From contig CALVOX010000002.1 in assembly GCA_944350425.1 (NCBI GenBank), forward strand, positions 62,001 to 126,000: 64,000 nucleotides of DNA. Direction: 5' to 3'. The notes under the pieces were generated by a model that saw only the letters and a list, made by a program, of their open reading frames with translations, was not told the origin of the DNA and ran no database searches. This DNA is from an uncultured Bacilli bacterium (GTDB lineage: Bacteria; Bacillota_I; Bacilli_A; RFN20; CAG-826). The translations under genes were made by a program, and so were the position numbers. Shown one piece after another: positions 6,468 to 48,373 of this stretch. Position 1 is the stretch's first letter, and every line of letters begins with the position of its first letter.

Positions 6468-7964
6468 TTATGCGAATAAGATATCAGCTAATTCTGGATA
6501 ATCAATAAATGGGTTTCTATTACCTTGAACATTATAAACAAAATTATTTCTACCTAGTTCAAATTCAGAAACTGGGTCTTCTTTGTTCCAAGCTAATAAA
6601 GTTGATAATACACCAAATTCAGCTGGCTTATCTTTAGTTTCAGCCGTTGTACAATTAACTTCTTTTGGATTTTCAACTAACTTTAACCATGGTGAATTTT
6701 CTTCGTATTTAGAATATCTAACTGCCATATAGAATATAGCTCTAGCTAAATCTCCTCGATCACTCTTTGATGGTGGATACCATGTTGTAGAAGTAATCTT
6801 ATTATCAAAGAATTTATTTCTTCTAGCCGAGTTAGTAGAAGGATCAGCAAGTCTTAAATGATGTAAATCAGTTCCAGCATAAGATTCTTCATAATCACTA
6901 AATCCTCTAGATTTTGCCCAAATATGTTCTCTATTAAATTCACTAAAATTACCATTCCATGAAGGATGATCTTCTACATATAAAGGATCAACAATTACAT
7001 CTTTATCTTTCCATTTATTAGCTTCTACTTCTTCTTGAGTTAAAGGGTTTAAAGAATAATCTCTATCTGTTAAAAAGTATGCACTACTTGAAGAATAAAC
7101 AGTATTGGATGCCCAATAATCAAGATGTTTAGCCCCAGTTTTTAATAGTTCAAATAAAGAAGAAGTTAATTCTTCACTATCAGCGCTAAAATCAATTGAA
7201 GAATAATAAGATTCAATATCATCTTCATTAAATTGATAGAAAGGTGATGAACCAAGTTTTAAATCAAATTCCTCATTATAAGTAACATAAGTTGATACTA
7301 ATGGTTCTAAATAGTTTTGATTTCCTCCACTACTTGGTAAGATTTCGTTTCCTTCACTATCTAAGAAAATAGCACTTACTACAAATCCGTTTTTAACCAT
7401 TGTAGTTTCATAAGAATAAACATTATCTTCACTTAGTTTTATTCTTTCATCATTACCATTAATGACTTCATCATTAATGGTAATTTCTTTTAATGAATTA
7501 CCTTCATCTGGAATAAAGTAGAATGTAATATCTTCATTTTCAAATCTAGAACCATAACTTGGAACTATCTTTCCACCATAAGAAGGTAAGATTGATGATG
7601 AATATGCGGTTTTTCCTTCGCTTACTCCACCTATAGCATCACTACCATCGCTTCCATCTTCACCATAGATATTACTTATTTTTATCCAAGAAGCTTCTTC
7701 TTTTTTATAGATATCACCGTTTATTACGTTTAAGTAAAGATCTCCTAGTTTTCCTAAATCTAAACTTGGGATACCATTACCATTAAGTAATGTAGTTCCA
7801 TCAACACCATCTTTTCCGTTTAAACCATCTTCACCATCATTACCACTACTTCCTTTATCTCCAACTTCACCTTTATCACCTTCAACATAAGTTGGTGAAC
7901 AAGACGAAATTAAACTTAATGATATTGCAAGTAAAGTTAGAGGAATTATTTTTCTAATTTTCAT
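6468..7964 (-). CDS. Collagen-stalk lipoprotein carrying an EndA/NucM-type endonuclease I domain
   Basis: A 498-residue lipoprotein (lipobox LISSC at about 18-22). Next comes a collagen-like Gly-X-Y stretch (about 29-57), a short module with GKLGDLYLNVINGDIYKK (about 71-95), a second GEDGSDG stretch, and an InlB-like beta-repeat module that starts at AYSSSILPSYGG. From about residue 270 it is an endonuclease I domain, with NREHIWAKSRG, then GTDLHHLRLADPSTNSARRN and RGDLARAIFYMAVRY, which carry the catalytic histidine, metal-binding asparagines and Arg of that family. It should degrade DNA or RNA outside the cell while tethered to the membrane, feeding nucleotide salvage or breaking down extracellular DNA. 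It lies 16 bases after the 7981-10092 gene with its own AGGAGG site, so the two form an operon. Confidence 0.88.
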   Translation of the reverse strand: MKIRKIIPLTLLAISLSLISSCSPTYVEGDKGEVGDKGSSGNDGEDGLNGKDGVDGTTLLNGNGIPSLDLGKLGDLYLNVINGDIYKKEEASWIKISNIYGEDGSDGSDAIGGVSEGKTAYSSSILPSYGGKIVPSYGSRFENEDITFYFIPDEGNSLKEITINDEVINGNDERIKLSEDNVYSYETTMVKNGFVVSAIFLDSEGNEILPSSGGNQNYLEPLVSTYVTYNEEFDLKLGSSPFYQFNEDDIESYYSSIDFSADSEELTSSLFELLKTGAKHLDYWASNTVYSSSSAYFLTDRDYSLNPLTQEEVEANKWKDKDVIVDPLYVEDHPSWNGNFSEFNREHIWAKSRGFSDYEESYAGTDLHHLRLADPSTNSARRNKFFDNKITSTTWYPPSKSDRGDLARAIFYMAVRYSKYEENSPWLKLVENPKEVNCTTAETKDKPAEFGVLSTLLAWNKEDPVSEFELGRNNFVYNVQGNRNPFIDYPELADILFA

Positions 7965-7980
7965 AAAATAAACCTCCTAT

Positions 7981-10092
7981 TTATTTAAGTTCTAAAGATG
8001 TCATATTGATTCTAGTTCTTCCATTAGTTGTTTCTAGAACTACAGCAAATCTAGCATTAACTACATCATTTAAACTTACACTAAGATTAGTATTATCTTT
8101 AGTAAAATCAACCTTATTATATGTATTTCCATCATCTAAAGAATATAAGAAATATAAGCTGTAGTTATTTTCATCAAATTCACCATCTTCACTAAAGATT
8201 AAAGTTATATCTTTAAAGCTTAGGTTATATTCACTATAAAGAGCTGAATAATATTTATTATCTACTTTAACACTGTCTTCAGTTACGTTTAGGTCTAGAC
8301 CATTTAGGATATTTTTAGGAACTAATTGTTTGAATTTATTAGCGCCGTTGGAACCAATAGTTACACCAAGATTACCACTACTACTAGAGAAAGCATTAGG
8401 TAATCCGTTGGTTACAATCATAGTTCCTTTATCTGTGGTAGTTGTATATTTATTATAACTAGCCCCCTCAGTATACCAAGTCATCGAAGTAAAATCATAA
8501 AGGGTAGATTCTACTTGTCCACCTTCACTCTTCTTAATTGTAATTGTTAACTCATTTGAAGTTATTCCACCAACTTTAGCAACAACTTTAACGCTTCCTT
8601 CTTTTAGACCAGTTAAAGCATTACCATTAAGGCTAGCTTCACCATCATTATCACTAAGTTCATAAGTTACACCACTAACATCAGCATTTGCTGGGTTAGG
8701 AGTAATAGTTAAAGTAAGTGTTTCATTTTCGTTAATTTCAGTTTTTGAAGCACTTAATGTTAAAGATTCTAATTCTGGTTTAGGTGCTTCTACTTTTGAA
8801 ATTAAAGATGCGTTAAGTTGATTAATACCATTAAATTTGTCTAAATAAGCTTTAATTGTGATAGTATCTCCAATATTAGCAATTGGTTCACCGTTTTGAA
8901 TAAAAGATTTATTATTTTCGTAGCTCCATAAACCTGTATCTTCATGGAATGTGAATGGTTCATCATTATTTGCTAATCCATAAACTAAAATAACTTTACT
9001 AGGGTCATTAACATCTTCTAAATAGAAATTACCATATTCAGTATAAGTATCAACTTCTCCCCAACTTCCGTCAGTTTTTTTACCATACCAAGCCTTAACT
9101 TTACCAGTTACTTCAAATAATTGTTGAGGTATATCTTTAGAAGCATTATTATTATAAGCTTCTGGATCCATCTTATTTAATTCATCAATAGTTGTTTTAA
9201 TTAATTCATTAGGATCGATTACAGTATCTTCAATTATCTTAATTGTTACTTCATTAGAAACAATATCATTGGATTTTGCAACAACTTTAACTTCGCCAAC
9301 ACCTAAAGCAGTTAAGGTATTTCCTTCAATTGATGCTAAATCACTACCGCTAGTAATTTCATAAACGATATTTAAATCAGAGGCATTACTTGGTGTAGGA
9401 ACAACATCAAAAGTAACTGTTCCTCTAACTTTTACCTGAGTAGATGAAGAAGATAATTTTAGTGATTTTAATGGATTATAATCACTAAAATTAGCACTGA
9501 CTACATATCCATTTTTAACCATTGTTGTTTGATAAGTATAACTTCTATTACTAGATAGAGTTAACTTATCTAAAGTAATAACTTGCTCATTTAATACTAA
9601 TGATTCTACTTGAGTATCTTCTAAAGGTGTAATAGTAAAGGTAATTGTTTCTCCTTCTAATGCGCTACCTTTATCAGCTCTAACATAACCACCAGTTAAA
9701 GGTAAGAAGGTATTAGAATAAGCGTTTTTTCCATCTTCGCCTACTAAAGTTCCATCACTTCCGTCTTCTCCATCTTCACCATTGATTGAAGATAAGAATT
9801 TCCATTCTCCATTTTCCTTAAAATAAAGATCATTAGTTGAGGTGTTAAGATAATAATCACCATCTTTTCCTAAAGAATTTGTAGGTTTAGAACTTCCACT
9901 TAGCCAAGATGAACCATCTTTTCCATCTTCACCATCAATTCCGTCTTTTCCATCTTCTCCTTTATCGCCTACTGGTCCTTTGTCTCCTGTTGGACCCTTA
10001 ATAGGTTCTCCACCCGAACAACTAGTAAATGTTGCTCCAAGCGAAAGAATCCCTATTATCGATAATAGAGGTAAAAGTTTTTTTCTTTTCAT
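7981..10092 (-). CDS. Collagen-stalk lipoprotein with two Ig-like (Big2) repeats and an OB-fold-like domain
   Basis: About 703 residues from the ATG at 10092. A TTG at 10107 is in frame but overlaps the GGAGG ribosome site at 10101-10105, so the ATG is preferred. The order is lipobox FTSC, collagen-like triplets, the GKDGDYYLNTSTNDLYFK module, and an InlB-like repeat. A Big2-type Ig domain follows at about 215-290. Then a region with VTGKVKAWYG and GNFYLEDVND looks like the OB-fold found beside secreted nucleases (about 305-440). A second Big2 domain sits at about 445-525, and a beta-rich C-terminal domain follows. No catalytic motif is evident. Its partner downstream is the EndA-type lipoprotein, so a role in binding nucleic acid or assembling the nuclease at the surface is a reasonable inference. 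Confidence 0.82.
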   Translation of the reverse strand: MKRKKLLPLLSIIGILSLGATFTSCSGGEPIKGPTGDKGPVGDKGEDGKDGIDGEDGKDGSSWLSGSSKPTNSLGKDGDYYLNTSTNDLYFKENGEWKFLSSINGEDGEDGSDGTLVGEDGKNAYSNTFLPLTGGYVRADKGSALEGETITFTITPLEDTQVESLVLNEQVITLDKLTLSSNRSYTYQTTMVKNGYVVSANFSDYNPLKSLKLSSSSTQVKVRGTVTFDVVPTPSNASDLNIVYEITSGSDLASIEGNTLTALGVGEVKVVAKSNDIVSNEVTIKIIEDTVIDPNELIKTTIDELNKMDPEAYNNNASKDIPQQLFEVTGKVKAWYGKKTDGSWGEVDTYTEYGNFYLEDVNDPSKVILVYGLANNDEPFTFHEDTGLWSYENNKSFIQNGEPIANIGDTITIKAYLDKFNGINQLNASLISKVEAPKPELESLTLSASKTEINENETLTLTITPNPANADVSGVTYELSDNDGEASLNGNALTGLKEGSVKVVAKVGGITSNELTITIKKSEGGQVESTLYDFTSMTWYTEGASYNKYTTTTDKGTMIVTNGLPNAFSSSSGNLGVTIGSNGANKFKQLVPKNILNGLDLNVTEDSVKVDNKYYSALYSEYNLSFKDITLIFSEDGEFDENNYSLYFLYSLDDGNTYNKVDFTKDNTNLSVSLNDVVNARFAVVLETTNGRTRINMTSLELK

Positions 10093-25200: not shown

Positions 25201-27789
25201 TCATTCATCAATTACTACATCATAATAAGTGACTGTCGTCCCATCTTCTTCTACAACTCTACTGATGGTTTTATATCCTTCAACAAGAAAGTTTTCGGTA
25301 GGATTTTCACTTAATGAATTACTTGGATCATAGCTTTCAAATGTTCCTCCACGAACATAGAATTTACCATCACAGCCATCAATTAAATTTAAAGTATAAT
25401 AGCGGTTACTATATTCGACTGGGTCTAAATATGTACCTCCATTAACATAAGCTTTAGATGAGTCATCTAATTGTATAACGGTCATATGGAAATTATATGT
25501 TCCATCTTCAACTGTAATCATTGAATTATTAGCTAATCTGAAATAGAAACCTAATGAGTTTTCATTTTCTCCCTCTAAAACTAATGAGAAATTAGGATTT
25601 CCATAAACTCTTAAAGAAGAATTATCAAATAAATCAAATACTGCTTCTTTTCCTAAAACTACATTTTTTTCATTAAAATCAATTTCAATAGCTAAATCAT
25701 TTCTTAAATAAATTGATTCATTAACTTCTAAAGATGTAACACTATCATCAACTTTAAAATTTAAAGTTGATGTAAATTTATACCCACTTAATTTATTAAC
25801 TAATAAAAGTTGTTCTGCACTACTAATAATTAATGGATTTTCAACACTTCCACTACCGCCATTAAACTTAACACCGTCAACTTTTACTGATTTCTCTTTA
25901 ACAAAGGTATCTCCATCATAATATGCCGATGAATATAATTGTCCATCAACGAAAACATTATTTTTAAGTGTGTTAAGAGAATCATCAATTGTTAAAAGAA
26001 CTTTATCACCTAAAGAATTAATATAAACTCTTCCTTCACTATCTTTAAATTGTTCATAAGAAGAAGAATCACTAATAATAGTTACATTATTTTCTTCGCT
26101 TTCACCATTTGCGTAAAGTAAATATGGTTTTTCTGGATCGGTTACAGGTGTTTCATCAGTTAATAATGATATTTCACTATTACTATCATTTATACTAGTA
26201 AGTTCATTAACTGTAACCCCACTCATTGTTAATTTGGTAGTTGTACTATATGCATTTGCTTCATTATTACCTAAAGTAACAGCAGCAACAGGAACACCAT
26301 TTCCTGTAAACCATTCTCCATCATAGCAATGTGGTAAGGTTGAATAATAGTCATTACCGGTATAATTTAAAGTAGTATTTTCTAAAGTAACTTCGCCACC
26401 ACGAACGACAACCGCTTGTCTGTCACCTTCAATTGTTGAATCTCTAACGACAACTTCAGCGCTAACATTAATAAATAATCCAGTATTTGTATATAAATTT
26501 TCATTAGCAGTTAAATCGCCTTCGTGCAATGTTGAAATCGTACTGTTCTCGATAGTAATGCTAATTTGATCTGTTTCAGCCGATCCCTTAGAAGCATTAG
26601 TGCCTACTCCATAATCACCTGCATGAATAACACTATCTCTAATTACAATATCACTACCAACAGATTGAGTATAAATGGCCGTACCATTAGTTTCGACTTC
26701 CATATTATCTAAAACAATATTGTTATTAGTACAATCTCCTCGAAGGGCAAATAAAGATAATCCGCCATCACGCATTTGATTAGCTTCAATTTTACCATTC
26801 TTATAAGTTAATGTTGTATCGCTTGCAACCTTAATAGGAGATACAGTTGTAGTTGGATCTTGAGCAACAAATTCAATTGTATTTCCATTTAAATCTAAGC
26901 TTAATTCTTCTAAGGTTTCGCTAGTTGATGGTAAAGCATCAACTTTATTTTCGCCAGTAAAATCAGCATTTTCACTTAATTTGAAATAGCTTTCGCCTGT
27001 ATTAGTAATTTCAGTAAATTGCTCTTTACTTTCAACCAATAAAGGATCTTCACTAGTTCCACTACCGCCCTCAAAAACAACGGCATCTTTAACAACAGTT
27101 CCTTCAGTAATAATATTACCTAATCCATCAACTAAGCCACCTTCATACTTTTGACCATCTTTATAATAAGAAGTCTCTCCAGTAGCAGACACTTCTCCAA
27201 AAGTTGCTGAAACTACAAAGCCACCTTCTTGCATTGCTAAAGTATAAGAAACTTCACTATTTTCTACAGTTGCCTCAGGCAAGGTGACTTCTTCTCCATT
27301 ATTAAAGATTAATAATGATGATAAAAGATAGCCGCTATCAGGAACAACAGTGAAAGTAACATCTTCTCCAACTAAAGCACTACCAGCACTTGGAATTACA
27401 TATCCACCTTCACTAGGTAGAATTGTATTAGACCATGCAGTTTTTCCATCTTGACCATTACTTCCTGAAGAACCACTACTTCCATCTTCGCCTTTAATAT
27501 TCATAACAAGTGACCATGTTCCATTATCTTTTTGATATAAATCACCTGTTTTAGAATCGATGTAAATATCGCTGTCTTTTCCTAGACTATCTTCTGGTTT
27601 TCCTTCGCCAGTTAAAATTAAAGAACCGTCTTGCCCGTCTTCACCATTTTCTCCGGCAGGACCTTCTGGACCTTGTGGACCTTCTGGGCCGATTGGACCT
27701 TGTTCGCCTTGATTATTACATGAAGTTATACCCATACCGACGATTGAGCATAAAGCAAATAAACTTAAAAATAATTTTCTTTTTTGCAT
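25201..27789 (-). CDS. Collagen-stalk lipoprotein with parallel beta-helix region (T14 promoter)
   Basis: An 862-residue lipoprotein: lipobox GITSC at about 20-24, nine or so Gly-X-Y triplets (GPIGPEGPQG onward, about 29-56), the module DIYIDSKTGDLYQK, a second Gly-rich stretch GEDGSSGSSGSNGQDG, and an InlB-like repeat module starting TAWSNTILPSEGGYV. The rest (about 220-840) is made of strands typical of a right-handed beta-helix (IVIRDSVIHAGDYG, EVVVRDSTIEGDRQAVVV). These are organised in units that open with GGSGTSEDPLLV-like caps. The first 150 residues are nearly identical to those of 27951-29933; the remainder is not. It probably projects from the membrane and may bind carbohydrate or other cells. 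The T14 tract in its promoter suggests on/off switching. Confidence 0.85.
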   Translation of the reverse strand: MQKRKLFLSLFALCSIVGMGITSCNNQGEQGPIGPEGPQGPEGPAGENGEDGQDGSLILTGEGKPEDSLGKDSDIYIDSKTGDLYQKDNGTWSLVMNIKGEDGSSGSSGSNGQDGKTAWSNTILPSEGGYVIPSAGSALVGEDVTFTVVPDSGYLLSSLLIFNNGEEVTLPEATVENSEVSYTLAMQEGGFVVSATFGEVSATGETSYYKDGQKYEGGLVDGLGNIITEGTVVKDAVVFEGGSGTSEDPLLVESKEQFTEITNTGESYFKLSENADFTGENKVDALPSTSETLEELSLDLNGNTIEFVAQDPTTTVSPIKVASDTTLTYKNGKIEANQMRDGGLSLFALRGDCTNNNIVLDNMEVETNGTAIYTQSVGSDIVIRDSVIHAGDYGVGTNASKGSAETDQISITIENSTISTLHEGDLTANENLYTNTGLFINVSAEVVVRDSTIEGDRQAVVVRGGEVTLENTTLNYTGNDYYSTLPHCYDGEWFTGNGVPVAAVTLGNNEANAYSTTTKLTMSGVTVNELTSINDSNSEISLLTDETPVTDPEKPYLLYANGESEENNVTIISDSSSYEQFKDSEGRVYINSLGDKVLLTIDDSLNTLKNNVFVDGQLYSSAYYDGDTFVKEKSVKVDGVKFNGGSGSVENPLIISSAEQLLLVNKLSGYKFTSTLNFKVDDSVTSLEVNESIYLRNDLAIEIDFNEKNVVLGKEAVFDLFDNSSLRVYGNPNFSLVLEGENENSLGFYFRLANNSMITVEDGTYNFHMTVIQLDDSSKAYVNGGTYLDPVEYSNRYYTLNLIDGCDGKFYVRGGTFESYDPSNSLSENPTENFLVEGYKTISRVVEEDGTTVTYYDVVIDE

Positions 27790-27812
27790 TTTAAAAACCT
27801 CTAATTACTAAA

Positions 27813-27841
27813 ACTCTATCTTAAAAAAAAAAAAAACGCAA
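27813..27841 (-). promoter_or_regulatory. Poly-T promoter, spacer 17 (T14)
   Basis: On the reverse strand TTGCGT (27836-27841) and TAGAGT (27813-27818) are separated by 17 bases made almost entirely of a T14 tract (27823-27836). The same flanks occur at 29957-29979 with T8. Optimal spacing here suggests the on state. Confidence 0.6.
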
Positions 27842-27899
27842 GGCTTCGATATACATTTCTTGTGTGAAATAAATTTTTGTCTTTTTATAAACATCAAAA

Positions 27900-27933
27900 A
27901 AATGGGAAGCGATACTTTTTTTGCTTCCCATTT
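27900..27933 (-). terminator. Terminator after the collagen-stalk lipoprotein at 27951
   Basis: AAATGGGAAGC / GCTTCCCATTT with a 12-base T-rich loop, just after the stop at 27951. It separates the two tandem lipoprotein genes, so each needs its own promoter. Confidence 0.85.
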
Positions 27934-27950
27934 ATTAAATAGATTAGAAA

Positions 27951-29933
27951 TTACTTAATTGAATTAAGATTAACTGTTGAAGACATTCCAACAATTTCGC
28001 CTTCTGCGTTATATAATTCAATCATAAGTGTAATATTATTTACTGCTTTTAGAGTTAAGTTATCGCTATATCCTTCACCATTATTAAATTTGCCACTATC
28101 ATGATAAACGACGTAAGCGCCATCTTCATAAGCCCATCTTGTTTCGTTAACTCCTAATGTTTCATCAACTTTAACTACTTCATTTAAAGTTGTTACATAA
28201 AGGCTAGTTGCAGTACTGCTTGTTAAATCAGAAATTGTATATTCATCAGAATATAAATCACTTAATAAAGTTCCGCTTACTTTTTCATCATTTTCATAAG
28301 CTTGTAAATATGTACTCAATCTAATTTTAAGAGTTACTGCATCTTCTGGTAAACTAGAACCGTTAACTTGTAACATCAAGGAATTATTTTCACCTTTAGT
28401 TAATGTGAAATTATTATTTAATTCGATAACTGGAAGAACTTTTACAAGACTTTCGTCGATTGTATTATTTTCTAAAGTTAATTCTGAATAATATAATTCA
28501 TATTTTTCTTCACTTTGACCTGGGCAAGCAATAAATGTATTTGCACCGTTATATCCGATTATACTTCCTTCGTTAACGCAGTTTTTAAATACAAACTTAG
28601 CATCAGCGTTTTGACCAGCACTATAATTTCCAACAAATGCTGCAACATCTCTACCTCTTATATTTCCATAATTTTTGCAGCCATCAAAAATTACTTCACA
28701 AGGTGTATTTGGTGTTGATGCTACGTAACCTCCTAAAATTCCAGAACCATATCCTGCCCCAAAGTCTAGATTATAATAGTTAACAATATTCTTGAAAGTA
28801 AATTGTTCGCCACTATATCCAGATCTAGCAAAAGCAACAATTGGTCCGTTATTATTAGAAGCTGTGTAATATTGACCATTTACATCTGCAGGAACTCCTG
28901 AAGTAAGATTTTCAAAATTTGAGCCTGTTTCAGCAACATAGATAAAGCTTCCAATTGATCCGTCAGCATCAGGTGTACAAATAATTGTACCGTTTTTTAA
29001 AGTTCCATAATATCCATTAATATAGGAATTATCTTCTCTAGTTAAAACTTTTGCATTTAAATCAATGCTTCCCTTAAAAGAAACACCTTCTTCTACTGTA
29101 TCTAAAGAAACATCATTATTTAATTTAATACTATAATTAGAGCCGCTAACGTCAGTATTGTTAAAAACATTATGTATTTGTTCATCAGTTGAAACTTGTA
29201 AAGGATCGCTTTCACTTCCGCTACCGCCTTCAAATAATTTTTCTCCAGCAACACCTTCACTTATAACGTTTCCGGCTGCATCAAGTTCAGCACCAGTATA
29301 TATAACCCCATCTTTAAAGTATGTAGTTCTTGTAGTAGTTTCATCTTTACTCACAAAGTTAGCTTGTACGACCATGCCGTTTTTAACCATTGTAGTTACA
29401 AATTCACCAACGCCATCAACATAATCGATTTCATTATAAGTTGTTCCATTAATTACTAACGAATCAAATGTATAGCCATCTTCAACATGAATATAGAAAG
29501 TAACTTCCGTTCCTTCTATTGCACTACCAACACTTGGAATAACATATCCTCCTTCGCTTGGCAAAATTGTATTAGACCATGCTGTTTTTCCATCTTGACC
29601 ATTACTCCCTGAAGAACCGTTACTTCCATCTTCACCTTTAATATTCATAACAAGTGACCATGTTCCATTTTCTTTTTGATATAAATCACCTGTCTTAGAA
29701 TCGATGTAAATATCGCTATCTTTCCCTAGACTATCTTCTGGTTTTCCTTCTCCAGTTAAAATTAATGAACCGTCTTGTCCGTCTTCACCATTTTCTCCGG
29801 CAGGACCTTCAGGGCCTTGTGGTCCTTCTGGACCGATTGGACCTTGTTCGCCTTGATTATTACATGAAGTAATGCCCATACCGACGATTGAGCATAAAGC
29901 AAGCAAACTTAAAAATAATTTTCTTTTTTGCAT
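27951..29933 (-). CDS. Collagen-stalk lipoprotein with distinct C-terminal domain (T8 promoter)
   Basis: A 660-residue paralogue of its neighbour. Lipobox, Gly-X-Y stalk, DIYIDSKTGDLYQK module and TAWSNTILPSEGGYV module are almost identical over about 150 residues. It then diverges: an InlB-like unit with TTMVKNGMVVQANF (shared in pattern with the 6468 and 7981 products), a FEGGSGSESDPLQV cap, beta-helix strands to about 480, and a beta-sandwich-like C-terminus (about 490-660). No catalytic motif is visible. The sharp change from identity to divergence points to recombination between paralogues. Its promoter has only T8, giving an 11-base spacer, so it is predicted to be off in this assembly. 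Confidence 0.84.
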   Translation of the reverse strand: MQKRKLFLSLLALCSIVGMGITSCNNQGEQGPIGPEGPQGPEGPAGENGEDGQDGSLILTGEGKPEDSLGKDSDIYIDSKTGDLYQKENGTWSLVMNIKGEDGSNGSSGSNGQDGKTAWSNTILPSEGGYVIPSVGSAIEGTEVTFYIHVEDGYTFDSLVINGTTYNEIDYVDGVGEFVTTMVKNGMVVQANFVSKDETTTRTTYFKDGVIYTGAELDAAGNVISEGVAGEKLFEGGSGSESDPLQVSTDEQIHNVFNNTDVSGSNYSIKLNNDVSLDTVEEGVSFKGSIDLNAKVLTREDNSYINGYYGTLKNGTIICTPDADGSIGSFIYVAETGSNFENLTSGVPADVNGQYYTASNNNGPIVAFARSGYSGEQFTFKNIVNYYNLDFGAGYGSGILGGYVASTPNTPCEVIFDGCKNYGNIRGRDVAAFVGNYSAGQNADAKFVFKNCVNEGSIIGYNGANTFIACPGQSEEKYELYYSELTLENNTIDESLVKVLPVIELNNNFTLTKGENNSLMLQVNGSSLPEDAVTLKIRLSTYLQAYENDEKVSGTLLSDLYSDEYTISDLTSSTATSLYVTTLNEVVKVDETLGVNETRWAYEDGAYVVYHDSGKFNNGEGYSDNLTLKAVNNITLMIELYNAEGEIVGMSSTVNLNSIK

Positions 29934-29956
29934 TTTTAAATACCTCGAGTGTCGAA

Positions 29957-29979
29957 ACTCTACCTTAAAAAAAACGCAA
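29957..29979 (-). promoter_or_regulatory. Poly-T promoter, spacer 11 (T8)
   Basis: TTGCGT (29974-29979) and TAGAGT (29957-29962) on the reverse strand with an 11-base spacer containing T8 (29967-29974). Flanks match 27813-27841: CTTGCG before the tract and AAGGTAGAGTTT after it. This spacing should be inactive for the main sigma factor. Confidence 0.55.
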
Positions 29980-30084
29980 GACTTCGGGAAAGTATTTAAC
30001 CTTAAGCTAGTTTTTTTGTCTTTTTTTGATTTCGTTGAAATTATTTTTAATATGTCTATATATGATTAAGTCTTTAAATTATAT

Positions 30085-30216
30085 TTAGAGTGCAGAGTTA
30101 AAATAATGTCCTCTAGTGTGTTTAGAAGGATTAAATGTTTTAATGTTAGAATTAGATTCTAAAATAGATTTAAAATTAGCAGGAATAGATTCTACTTCTT
30201 ATTTAGATTCGTGCTA
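30085..30216 (-). pseudogene. Duplicated 3' fragment of a U32 peptidase gene
   Basis: About 125 bases are roughly 90% identical to the end of the U32 gene at 31668-31800. Read on the reverse strand it gives ESK-stop-EVESIPANFK, then SKHTRGHYFNSAL and TAA, with one in-frame stop and different synonymous codons in the last four residues. It is a broken duplicate, probably from a related allele, and with 31668 it brackets the lipoprotein pair 30239-31542. Confidence 0.85.
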
Positions 30217-30238
30217 AAATAATAATTAGTGGGTAAAA

Positions 30239-30835
30239 TTATAAACCAAGAACATATTCCTTGCTAAATTCATCTTTTGTTATTGTAAAACGCACAATAT
30301 AAGGCTCGTCACTATCGTAATATAGTTTCATTATTTCTAAATCAAGCCCATCAAAATATTTAGCATTTTCATCCATATAATCGCTTATATTGAAACCATC
30401 ATATAAATCTTTTGGTATATAGTAGTAATTATTATTCCTTATGTAAAATATTGTTCCATTGCTCGATATTGAATATAGTCTTCTCATTTCACCATATCTA
30501 TAACAATAATATATATCACGGAAATTACCATCTAGAACAATTTCATCCTTATTCCCTAATTGATAATTATTAATATCTAAAGTAATAGGGAATAACTCTA
30601 TGAATTCTGTATAAAGAATAACTCTATGAAAATATTGATCGTTTTCCCAAACTAGCGAAACAAACCAAGGTGCAGAATCATCACTTGGTACAACTACTTT
30701 TTCACCATTAAAATAACTCACCGTATAAAATGGTGGTTCTACTTTATTGACTATTTCTTCTTTTTTACAAGAGGAAATAGTTAATAATGAAATTGTTAAT
30801 AATAATGTAGTTATATATTTATTCATCTTTTTCAT
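30239..30835 (-). CDS. Surface lipoprotein, PWF family
   Basis: A 198-residue lipoprotein (lipobox TISSC at about 19-23) with SAPWFVSLVWEN near residue 55, the block shared with the lipoproteins at 1021, 1532 and 30840. The mature part is rich in Tyr and Asp with LYYDSDEPYIVRF near the end. Function unknown. Its ATG follows the stop of the upstream lipoprotein gene by four bases, so both are on one transcript. Confidence 0.78.
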   Translation of the reverse strand: MKKMNKYITTLLLTISLLTISSCKKEEIVNKVEPPFYTVSYFNGEKVVVPSDDSAPWFVSLVWENDQYFHRVILYTEFIELFPITLDINNYQLGNKDEIVLDGNFRDIYYCYRYGEMRRLYSISSNGTIFYIRNNNYYYIPKDLYDGFNISDYMDENAKYFDGLDLEIMKLYYDSDEPYIVRFTITKDEFSKEYVLGL

Positions 30836-30839
30836 ATAG

Positions 30840-31367
30840 CTAGTAATACCAAAGATTTAAAATTCTTAAAATCTCTTCTGGCAAATTATGAGTATCCCAG
30901 GAATACTTATCAAAGTAATCAAATATTTCAAAACTAGTACATATCTCCTGAGGTAAATAATAGTAACTCTTCGTTTCTCCATTATAACGATACAAAAATC
31001 CATTCTTAGATAACTGACAACAATCTTTTGTAAGCCTCGTTCGACATGCTTCTGAAAGTCTTAAATCATTAACAATATCAATAGTGGAAAGATCTGTTAA
31101 AGGTAAATAGTTGTCCTCATCTAAAAATGCTTCACCAAAGTTATCTAAAAAGTAATGATATGGAACAACATCTCCTGCAGTAGAAGCAATCGGATTGTTA
31201 AGAGAGAAAAACCATGGTTCTCGATTATCGGTATAAACCTTGTATCCATCAAAAGGATAAGGGAGAATGTAGTAAAGTGGTTCTTCCTCAACTATTTCTT
31301 CTGTTTCACAAGAAGTTAGTAAGAAAAAAGAACAAGCAAATAATAATAAAAGCTTCTTACCTAACAT
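30840..31367 (-). CDS. Surface lipoprotein, PWF family
   Basis: A 175-residue lipoprotein from the ATG at 31367, which has GAGGA six bases before it; an in-frame start at 31412 would add 15 residues ahead of the signal peptide and is unlikely. Lipobox LLTSC at about 16-20, then NREPWFFSLNNP at about 53-64. The cysteines in the second half (CRTRLTKDCC) are unusual among its relatives. First or second gene of a small lipoprotein operon with 30239-30835. Function unknown. Confidence 0.76.
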   Translation of the reverse strand: MLGKKLLLLFACSFFLLTSCETEEIVEEEPLYYILPYPFDGYKVYTDNREPWFFSLNNPIASTAGDVVPYHYFLDNFGEAFLDEDNYLPLTDLSTIDIVNDLRLSEACRTRLTKDCCQLSKNGFLYRYNGETKSYYYLPQEICTSFEIFDYFDKYSWDTHNLPEEILRILNLWYY

Positions 31368-31542
31368 AAATTCCTCTACTAACATAGCCATTACAATAAA
31401 GGTATGGTGCATATTCTACAGTTATTATATCAGGCCATAAAGAAAGTCTTCTATCAACATCATCATGATAATTAGATGAAGATAAAAGCAATATAGAAAT
31501 CAGTAAAAAAATTAACTTTTCAAGTGCTTTTTTTACTCTCAT
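31357..31542 (-). CDS. Short secreted or degenerate lipoprotein ORF
   Basis: A 61-codon ORF with a good signal-peptide core (LIFLLISILLLSSS) but SSSN where the lipobox cysteine of its neighbours would be. The stop overlaps the start of the next lipoprotein gene by eleven bases, as in an operon. It may be a truncated member of the lipoprotein family or a small secreted protein. The ribosome site is weak. Confidence 0.4.
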   Translation of the reverse strand: MRVKKALEKLIFLLISILLLSSSNYHDDVDRRLSLWPDIITVEYAPYLYCNGYVSRGIYVR

Positions 31543-45433: not shown

Positions 45434-48316
45434 CTAATGTACATTAATAGTAGAAAGTTCAGAACCTTCTTTTACATAGATCTTAGTAGTATGATCAAAC
45501 ATAGCATAACTTGCTTCATCAATATTTAATGTAGCTTTATATGTTCCATCATCATAAACATAAATTTGATAATAAAATCTACCTTCAACTTGTTCTCCGT
45601 TATCAACAAATTTAACGTTAGTTAATGTTAATGTTGCATCATAGTTATATGAAGTTGTACTTGTATCACCTACAACAATTGCACTATAAGGAACAGCATT
45701 ACCTGAACCCCAGTCTCCATCTAAATAAAGTTCATCTCCACTATAAGTATGACTATGAGCAATAGTTGAATCGCTAATAGTAACATTACCACCTCTTACA
45801 ATAAGACTTTGTTTTGTTCCTTCAATATAAGAGTTATTTTTAATATTAACATTAGCATTAACGGTTACTAACATTGCCATTGAATCTTTTGTACCTGCTG
45901 TATCTGAACTTCCATCGGTAATAATCTTACTATTATCGATGTTGATATTAACATTAGTAACTTTTTCGCCTAAAGTTGCATTTGTACCAATAGCAGTTGA
46001 ACCAGCTTTTATAGTTGAATCAATAATGTTTAAAATTGAATCTTTGCTGCTAATACCAATTGCTGTGGTTTTTGCTTCAAGAGTTATATTCTCGAGTGTT
46101 AATTCTCCACCTGTAAAACTTTCATCTGTATTCTTACCCATATAAGCAAAGCCAAGATCACTTTTCGAGATAATTGTTCCGTTTTTAAAAGTAACTTTGC
46201 TTCCTTGACTTACAAATAATCCAAAACTATTGGCGTTACTAATTGTCAAAGTATTACCATCTAAATCGATAACTTTTTCGCAAGCTAACAATTTGTTATC
46301 AGGGGTTAAAGTGGTGAGTGAAAAATTTCCGTTTAACTTAAAATACTTACCTGTACTGCTAGTAAACATATTTTGAGGTTGTGAAGTCCATCCTTTTGTA
46401 TTAACAATTAACGGATCTTCAGCAGTATTAGAACCTCCGGCAAATGTGATATTTGAACCTTTTACAGATGATAAATTATTAACTTCTCCATTATCATTTA
46501 AATATAATTTTGAATAATATACCCCATTATGATATACGTTTTCTTGTGGCTCTTTATCTAAAATATTAATAATTGAATGATCATTTTTACAAATATTTGT
46601 TTCGTCAAATTGACTTAATGTTGTTGAATCAATATTTAATGTAGCGTTATATTCATCACTTTCGCCAAACATATAAATATCATATGGTTCAGTTCTAGCG
46701 GCTCTAGTAGTTGTTTCTCCTTCACCTTCACTAGGTTTAATATCTGTTCTTACATAACTGACATTTTTCATTGTTAAAGATGCAGGACCTGGGTAAGCGC
46801 TTGTTGATTTATCGCCAATAACAATGCCAGCTGTTGCGACTCTATTTCCGTCACCATATTTATTACCATAATGATGAGGATCATCATTAAATGTTGGATC
46901 GGTATCATCTGTTGGATTATAGAAATAACCAGCTTCATATTCTAATTTAACATTATCTAATGTAACATCACCTGCTCTAACTATTAAAGCTTGTCTTTGA
47001 CCTTTAATAGTTGAATTAGAAATATTAACTGTCGCAGGAATATTAACCATAAATCCTGCGTTATCATGAAGAGCTGCCTCAGCAATAAAAGATGAATTAG
47101 TAATATCTATATTGACGTTTTCGATTTGATCATCTTTAAATAATGATGCATTAGTTGAAAATGGCATGACGCTATCTTTAATATTAACACCATCCATCTT
47201 AATGTTAATATTTTTAACTTCATCAACACCTTGATTTGCTCCTGGACCAACAACTATTCCAAAAGAATTAATATCGATGTTTTCAAGTGTTAAATCTGCA
47301 TCATTATAAACAAATAATCCACCATTAGAACCAATTGTTCCATTCTTTATAGAAACAGAAGAACCATCTAAAGCGGTTAATGCTTCGCTAGAATTTAAAG
47401 TTTTTTCACTTAAATCAAGAACAATATTTTTATCTTTATTGTTAGTTCCAACTAATAGAGTAGAAACTGTTAAACTATCTCCTTCAACACCACTCAATGA
47501 GAAATACATTGTTTCTTCATCTTGCTGAGCAGAAGCAATTTGTGATAATTGATCAGCAGTTTTAATAATTAAAGGATCATTTTCTTCACCAGTACCATCT
47601 TCAAATTTAGGAGCATCTTCTACTTTGCTATTTAAATCAGGAACAAATTCACCTACTGCGTTAAAAGTACCTAAATATCTAGTACCATCGACATAAGCAC
47701 TATCGCCTAATTCACTTAAATTTTTGAAAGAAGCTGCAATTACATATCCTCCTTCTTTCATGGTAATAGATTCTGAAACAACAACGTTTGTTGTTTCATC
47801 TAAAGTAAATGTTAAAGATGAAGTATTACCATCTTTATCAACTACTTCTAATTTATCTAAATAATATCCGCTATTTGGATATGCATTAACTGTAAATGTA
47901 GTACCAACTACTCCACTACCAATAGATGTCGTTAAATATCCGCCTTCAGTTGGTAGAACTGTATTTGACCAGGCAGTGTGTCCGTTTGAACCAGAACTAC
48001 CAGATGAACCATCTTCTCCATCTTCGCCTTTAATATTCATTACTAAAGTCCAAGTACCATTTTCTTTTTGATAAAGATCACCTGTTTTAGAATCGATATA
48101 AATATCAGAATCTTTTCCTAAAGTATCTTCTGGTTTACCTTCTCCAGTTAAAATTAATGAGCCATCTTGTCCATCTTCACCATTTTCTCCAGCAGGACCT
48201 TGAGGACCTTCTGGACCAATTGGACCTTGTTCACCTTGATTATTACAAGAAGTTATGCCCATACCGACGATTGAGCATAAAGCAAATAAACTTAAAAATA
48301 ATTTCTTTTTTTGCAT
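45434..48316 (-). CDS. Collagen-stalk lipoprotein with double beta-helix region (T17 promoter)
   Basis: A 960-residue paralogue of the pair at 25201 and 27951. Lipobox GITSC; the stalk has one Gly-X-Y triplet fewer (GPIGPEGPQGPAGENG). The DIYIDSKTGDLYQK module and the TAWSNTVLPTEGGYL module are kept. Two long beta-helix blocks follow (about 235-560 and 625-940), each opened by a cap such as FEDGTGEENDPLIIK or FAGGSNTAEDPLIV. Each block contains the same repeated theme (VNISNSTIKGQRQALIVRAGDV and VNIKNNSYIEGTKQSLIVRGGN), so the outer part arose by internal duplication. The same theme occurs in 25201-27789. Surface adhesin or carbohydrate-binding protein is the likely role. Confidence 0.85.
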   Translation of the reverse strand: MQKKKLFLSLFALCSIVGMGITSCNNQGEQGPIGPEGPQGPAGENGEDGQDGSLILTGEGKPEDTLGKDSDIYIDSKTGDLYQKENGTWTLVMNIKGEDGEDGSSGSSGSNGHTAWSNTVLPTEGGYLTTSIGSGVVGTTFTVNAYPNSGYYLDKLEVVDKDGNTSSLTFTLDETTNVVVSESITMKEGGYVIAASFKNLSELGDSAYVDGTRYLGTFNAVGEFVPDLNSKVEDAPKFEDGTGEENDPLIIKTADQLSQIASAQQDEETMYFSLSGVEGDSLTVSTLLVGTNNKDKNIVLDLSEKTLNSSEALTALDGSSVSIKNGTIGSNGGLFVYNDADLTLENIDINSFGIVVGPGANQGVDEVKNINIKMDGVNIKDSVMPFSTNASLFKDDQIENVNIDITNSSFIAEAALHDNAGFMVNIPATVNISNSTIKGQRQALIVRAGDVTLDNVKLEYEAGYFYNPTDDTDPTFNDDPHHYGNKYGDGNRVATAGIVIGDKSTSAYPGPASLTMKNVSYVRTDIKPSEGEGETTTRAARTEPYDIYMFGESDEYNATLNIDSTTLSQFDETNICKNDHSIINILDKEPQENVYHNGVYYSKLYLNDNGEVNNLSSVKGSNITFAGGSNTAEDPLIVNTKGWTSQPQNMFTSSTGKYFKLNGNFSLTTLTPDNKLLACEKVIDLDGNTLTISNANSFGLFVSQGSKVTFKNGTIISKSDLGFAYMGKNTDESFTGGELTLENITLEAKTTAIGISSKDSILNIIDSTIKAGSTAIGTNATLGEKVTNVNINIDNSKIITDGSSDTAGTKDSMAMLVTVNANVNIKNNSYIEGTKQSLIVRGGNVTISDSTIAHSHTYSGDELYLDGDWGSGNAVPYSAIVVGDTSTTSYNYDATLTLTNVKFVDNGEQVEGRFYYQIYVYDDGTYKATLNIDEASYAMFDHTTKIYVKEGSELSTINVH

Positions 48317-48342: not shown

Positions 48343-48373
48343 ATTCTAATCATAAAAAAAAAAAAAAAAACAA
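48343..48373 (-). promoter_or_regulatory. Poly-T promoter, spacer 19 (T17)
   Basis: On the reverse strand TTGTTT (48368-48373), a T17 tract (48354-48370) and TAGAAT (48343-48348) with a 19-base spacer. An alternative -10, TATGAT, directly follows the tract. Confidence 0.55.

Follow-up and report, generated by a model that had tools for sequence, protein, structure and literature searches.

Homopolymer tracts in the promoter spacers of collagen-like lipoprotein genes: candidate phase-variable loci in an uncultured Bacilli lineage

Introduction

The classic examples of phase variation through the promoter spacer come from mycoplasmas and Neisseria. In Mycoplasma hyorhinis, length changes of a poly-A tract in the promoter region switch transcription of the vlp lipoprotein family (PMC10502178, citing Citti and Wise 1995). 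The promoter spacer of vmm, a surface-protein gene of Mycoplasma mycoides, contains a repeat (PMC10502178), and in porA of Neisseria meningitidis a poly-G tract lies between -35 and -10, where its length sets the expression level (PMC3639595). In the gut commensal Bifidobacterium breve, homopolymer slippage in G tracts of sortase-pilus genes controls a surface structure (PMC9187656).

Here, we describe T tracts upstream of lipoprotein genes in a 64,000-nucleotide stretch of DNA from an uncultured Bacilli bacterium (the window). The arrangement resembles vlp in that lipoprotein-family members carry a homopolymer in the promoter region; unlike vlp, it belongs to another lineage in which TGA is a stop codon, the proteins are collagen-like, the T stands on the coding strand, and switching is a prediction. 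With porA it shares a homopolymer between -35 and -10, but porA is a single porin gene of a Gram-negative bacterium, whereas here a multigene lipoprotein family is involved, mostly with T tracts and with G in congeners. Like vmm, it has a repeat in the spacer of a surface-protein promoter, although vmm is a single gene with a dinucleotide repeat. The B. breve pilus tract is the nearest gut Gram-positive example that we found; unlike the tracts described here, its G tracts are intragenic and act on translation, not on promoter spacing. By analogy, the proposed mode of action matches that of the promoter-spacer contingency loci porA, vmm and vlp, and family searches gave no link of these proteins to the three systems. 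No prior report of such switching in this lineage was found in the open-licence literature.

Results

Three lipoprotein genes of the window are each preceded by a T tract between promoter-like hexamers. The features are:

25201..27789, reverse strand: gene 1, collagen-like lipoprotein of 862 aa, lipobox SC at residue 24
27813..27818, reverse strand: -10-like hexamer TAGAGT of gene 1, spacer 17
27823..27836, reverse strand: T14 homopolymer tract upstream of gene 1
27836..27841, reverse strand: -35-like hexamer TTGCGT of gene 1, TTGCG kept in sister-species copies
27951..29933, reverse strand: gene 2, collagen-like lipoprotein of 660 aa, tandem paralogue of gene 1
29967..29974, reverse strand: T8 tract of gene 2, box-to-box unit 29957-29979, spacer 11
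45434..48316, reverse strand: gene 3, collagen-like lipoprotein of 960 aa, third paralogue
48354..48370, reverse strand: T17 tract of gene 3, box-to-box unit 48343-48373, spacer 19

When the reverse strand was re-read, the coordinates, tract lengths and spacers given in the initial annotation proved correct; all tract lengths are taken from MAG consensus sequences, in which homopolymer lengths can be wrong. The spacer of gene 1 consists of 13 T and AAGA, from TTGCGT (27841-27836) to TAGAGT (27818-27813). The promoter of gene 2 (TTGCGT-N11-TAGAGT at 29979-29957, reverse strand) has the same hexamers as that of gene 1; those of gene 3 (TTGTTT-N19-TAGAAT at 48373-48343, reverse strand) are similar but not identical. 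T14 and T17 are both on the coding strand, 33-37 bp 5' of the ATG of a lipoprotein-family gene. The hexamers at the T tracts are poor matches to the sigma-70 consensus (at T14, 7 of 12 positions), and the T14 site was therefore missed by a consensus promoter scan.

All three genes translate properly with TGA as stop, which rules out a mycoplasma code with TGA as Trp. A search with the shared N-terminal part identified five clear family members in the source genome; the paralogues at 6468-7964 and 7981-10092 have no tract. Of 25 congeners, 14 gave family matches at E<=1e-6, including weak ones and ones restricted to the repeats. The only Pfam and NCBIfam matches were collagen-like and InlB-repeat-like, all below cut-off, and no homology to the Vlp family was found. 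Since TGA is a stop codon and the organism is an uncultured gut member of the Bacilli, vlp counts as an analogue rather than a relative. Compared with Scl-type proteins, the collagen-like stretch is short and does not reach the Pfam cut-off, NCBIfam SclA/SclB scores are far below cut-off, and the anchor is by sequence a lipobox, not LPXTG. The structure model of the 862-aa protein is moderate (pLDDT 64). Because its fold matches in the PDB are weak (mostly beta-helix proteins), the body of the modelled protein is described as beta-rich, with no finer assignment.

Long runs are rare in this genome. We read 827 kb directly and covered the remainder of the 1.15-Mb genome by pattern searches. T runs of at least 12 occur at only two places in the whole genome, namely the T14 and T17 tracts. 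The 827 kb contain 694 T/A runs of length 7, 37 of length 8 and none of 9-13, followed by T14 and T17. Two runs of at least 9 were thus observed versus approximately 291 expected from dinucleotides, which rules out chance AT-richness as the origin of the tracts. The sole G run of at least 8 in the source genome is a G9 tract outside the window (G000:C6:23555; L135:2055-2063, reverse strand), 33 bp 5' of a gene for an exported 'MLKRKLLMTILPVLSAAVIAGAGFSAW' protein. Members of the 'MLKRKLLMTILPVLSAAVIAGAGFSAW' gene family have upstream G or T tracts in several congeners, too.

A T tract can also be the tail of the intrinsic terminator of the upstream gene. One terminator-like hairpin lies between genes 2 and 1; it was missed by the consensus scan, whose loop limit is 8:

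27896..27931, reverse strand: terminator-like hairpin (GGGAAGC...GCTTCCC) with its own T7 tail, folding energy -14.8

Gene 2 thus has its own hairpin terminator 5' of T14, and T14 is therefore unneeded as a terminator. No stable hairpin was found before the window tracts themselves (0.0 and -2.5 kcal/mol; shuffled sequences do as well), and for want of one we rejected the terminator-tail reading for them. A hairpin does precede the tract in a few relatives (L083, L078, L133), but overall this explanation is extremely improbable. For T14 and T17, the consensus scan detected no other promoter farther upstream; for T8 it gave a single 9/12 match, approximately 220 bp upstream of the tract and not above shuffles.

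The comparison set consisted of 26 genomes of the genus, including the source genome (G000). These contain 38 T tracts of at least 11, and 13 of them, at 11 genes, precede the collagen-like lipoprotein family (in G000, G014, G015, G017 and G020). This enrichment has a binomial p of ~1e-24, calculated with approximately 30 family genes, a number estimated from the family search. The tract flanks are conserved, with CTTG or CTTGCG on the 5' side in most copies and TAG(A/G)nT 4-5 bases 3' of the tract. The distance from -10 to ATG varies by group (23-28 bp or 66-81 bp). As the flanks are kept and this distance is variable, the conserved unit is box-tract-box, not the distance to the gene. At the same promoter position, G023 has G10 between TTGCAA and TATTAT, with spacers of 17 and 18. 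Among the 16 scored tract promoters, 12 have spacers of 16-19 bp and four of 8-11 bp; the scoring left out G015c (T7, lacking TTG) and a copy in G014:C7 with three tracts. In that copy, three successive T tracts (22, 22 and 19; L077:11489-11643) stand before one lipoprotein gene near the contig end. In the G015, G017 and G020 copies (L080, L082, L083, L086), the 5' leader contains a hairpin-like inverted repeat between -10 and the start codon, and its sequence differs among the copies. Relatives outside the genus mostly have no tracts, with one exception, G069, which has G10. The initial annotation had treated the three paralogues as a self-contained set; this view had to be given up, as the arrangement recurs genus-wide and in other exported protein families.

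In intergenic DNA of the source genome, pairs of TTGACA-like and TATAAT-like hexamers show a spacing peak at 17 bp (28 versus approximately 10). Intergenic G tracts of at least 8 in the genus have promoter-like flanking boxes above those of shuffled flanks (mean 8.89 versus 7.83, sd 0.16). Examples before prepilin-type proteins, one of which was checked against NCBIfam, are TTGACA-N16-TATTAT and TTGACA-N16-TAGAAT. As in a contingency locus, a simple repeat lies between -35 and -10; the boxes are weak for the T tracts and strong for many of the G tracts. In G010:C23 and in G025:C4 and C26 (L146, L147, L170, L171, L173), G8-G12 tracts sit within near-perfect -35/-10 boxes, and the downstream genes are prepilin-type (GFTLxELVVVIAVIA). 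Other lipoproteins have in-frame G8-G10 tracts directly after the lipobox (L143, L144, L149, L160, L078:15994-16001), and these could mediate frameshift switching of translation.

The tracts might be variable and regulatory by a route other than -35/-10 spacing, either through the spacing to an operator or UP-like element farther upstream, or as poly-U in the 5' leader acting on translation or transcript slippage. The weak hexamers around the T tracts, where no consensus promoter was called, would fit such a mechanism. However, conserved boxes flank the tract 5' and 3', spacers cluster at 16-19, near-consensus boxes flank the tract in G023 and many G tracts, and there is no better promoter upstream of T14 or T17. 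We consider this alternative unlikely.

Tract lengths were compared with those of a sister species. Its genome (G014) is 85-97% identical to the source genome in most aligned blocks, typically approximately 93%. Over approximately 200 bp, the region upstream of the T8 gene aligns with its G014 counterpart and shows few differences, namely substitutions and one-base indels, but the tract is 8 versus 15. The remaining pairs of source and G014 tracts are T17 versus T14 and T14 versus T15. In these alignments, 63 control runs of 6-7 lengthened by +1 at most; runs interrupted by substitutions are among the losses. Repeat length is hypervariable, as at a contingency locus, between species and between paralogues only; no same-species alleles of the tracts were found in the GTDB set or in viral contigs. 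When the window region 25201-31420 was compared with L075, the sister species was found to have one gene where the source genome has two. In this single G014 gene, the upstream region corresponds to one window gene and the body to the other; the C-terminal part diverges after approximately residue 670. The make-up of the gene suggests recombination, or mosaic exchange, between paralogues via the shared N-terminal segment.

In N. meningitidis, porA switches at a higher rate in a mutS mutant (PMC3639595). None of the 26 genomes of the genus gave a MutS1 or MutL match above the model cut-off, and the same models were positive in 11 of 14 control genomes. A partial MutS match in the source genome is MutS2. 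Loss of mismatch repair could also leave tracts as neutral by-products, or the tracts could be assembly errors, in both cases with no role in switching. The missing MutS/MutL matches agree with this, as do error-like T runs inside ORFs of some fragmented relatives. Against it, runs of at least 8 are purged elsewhere in the genome, and five species share a tract at this promoter position of this gene family, as does a sixth, in which the tract consists of G. We regard such an origin as very improbable.

Discussion

The T14, T8 and T17 tracts are, with good probability, transcriptional contingency loci that act by slippage through -35/-10 spacing. Such a role had been proposed in the initial annotation, and the comparative support is strong: the tracts are limited to these genes, flanks are conserved, orthologous tracts differ in length, T is exchanged for G in the same spacer, spacers are mostly 16-19 bp, and MutS/MutL were not found. 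Switching itself and the on or off state of each gene are what we infer from these comparisons.

According to the proposed mechanism, each tract would form most of the spacer between -35 and -10 of its own lipoprotein gene, and slipped-strand mispairing would alter it by one or a few T. These slips would go uncorrected because, as we propose, the lineage lacks MutS/MutL mismatch repair. A change in length would bring the promoter nearer to or farther from the 17-bp spacing preferred by the organism. Expression of each paralogue could then rise or fall reversibly and irrespective of the others, and the surface coats would be mixed within the population. A spacer of 17 would correspond to an on state (gene 1), 11 to off (gene 2) and 19 to reduced expression (gene 3). 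Because T8 runs are tolerated at other sites of the genome, gene 2 with its T8 tract is probably switched off and close to locked. Slippage within a population and an effect of tract length on transcription are predicted by this mechanism, and the variation may play a role in interaction with the host or with phages.

On a broader scale, we lean towards a set of phase-variable promoters across this genus without MutS/MutL, with T or G at the same spacer position, that would control collagen-like lipoproteins, prepilin-like proteins and exported GFSAW proteins. The T-to-G change at one promoter position would be a natural test of spacing alone versus base identity. If the reading is true, surface variation of an uncultured commensal lineage would be readable directly from existing metagenomes.
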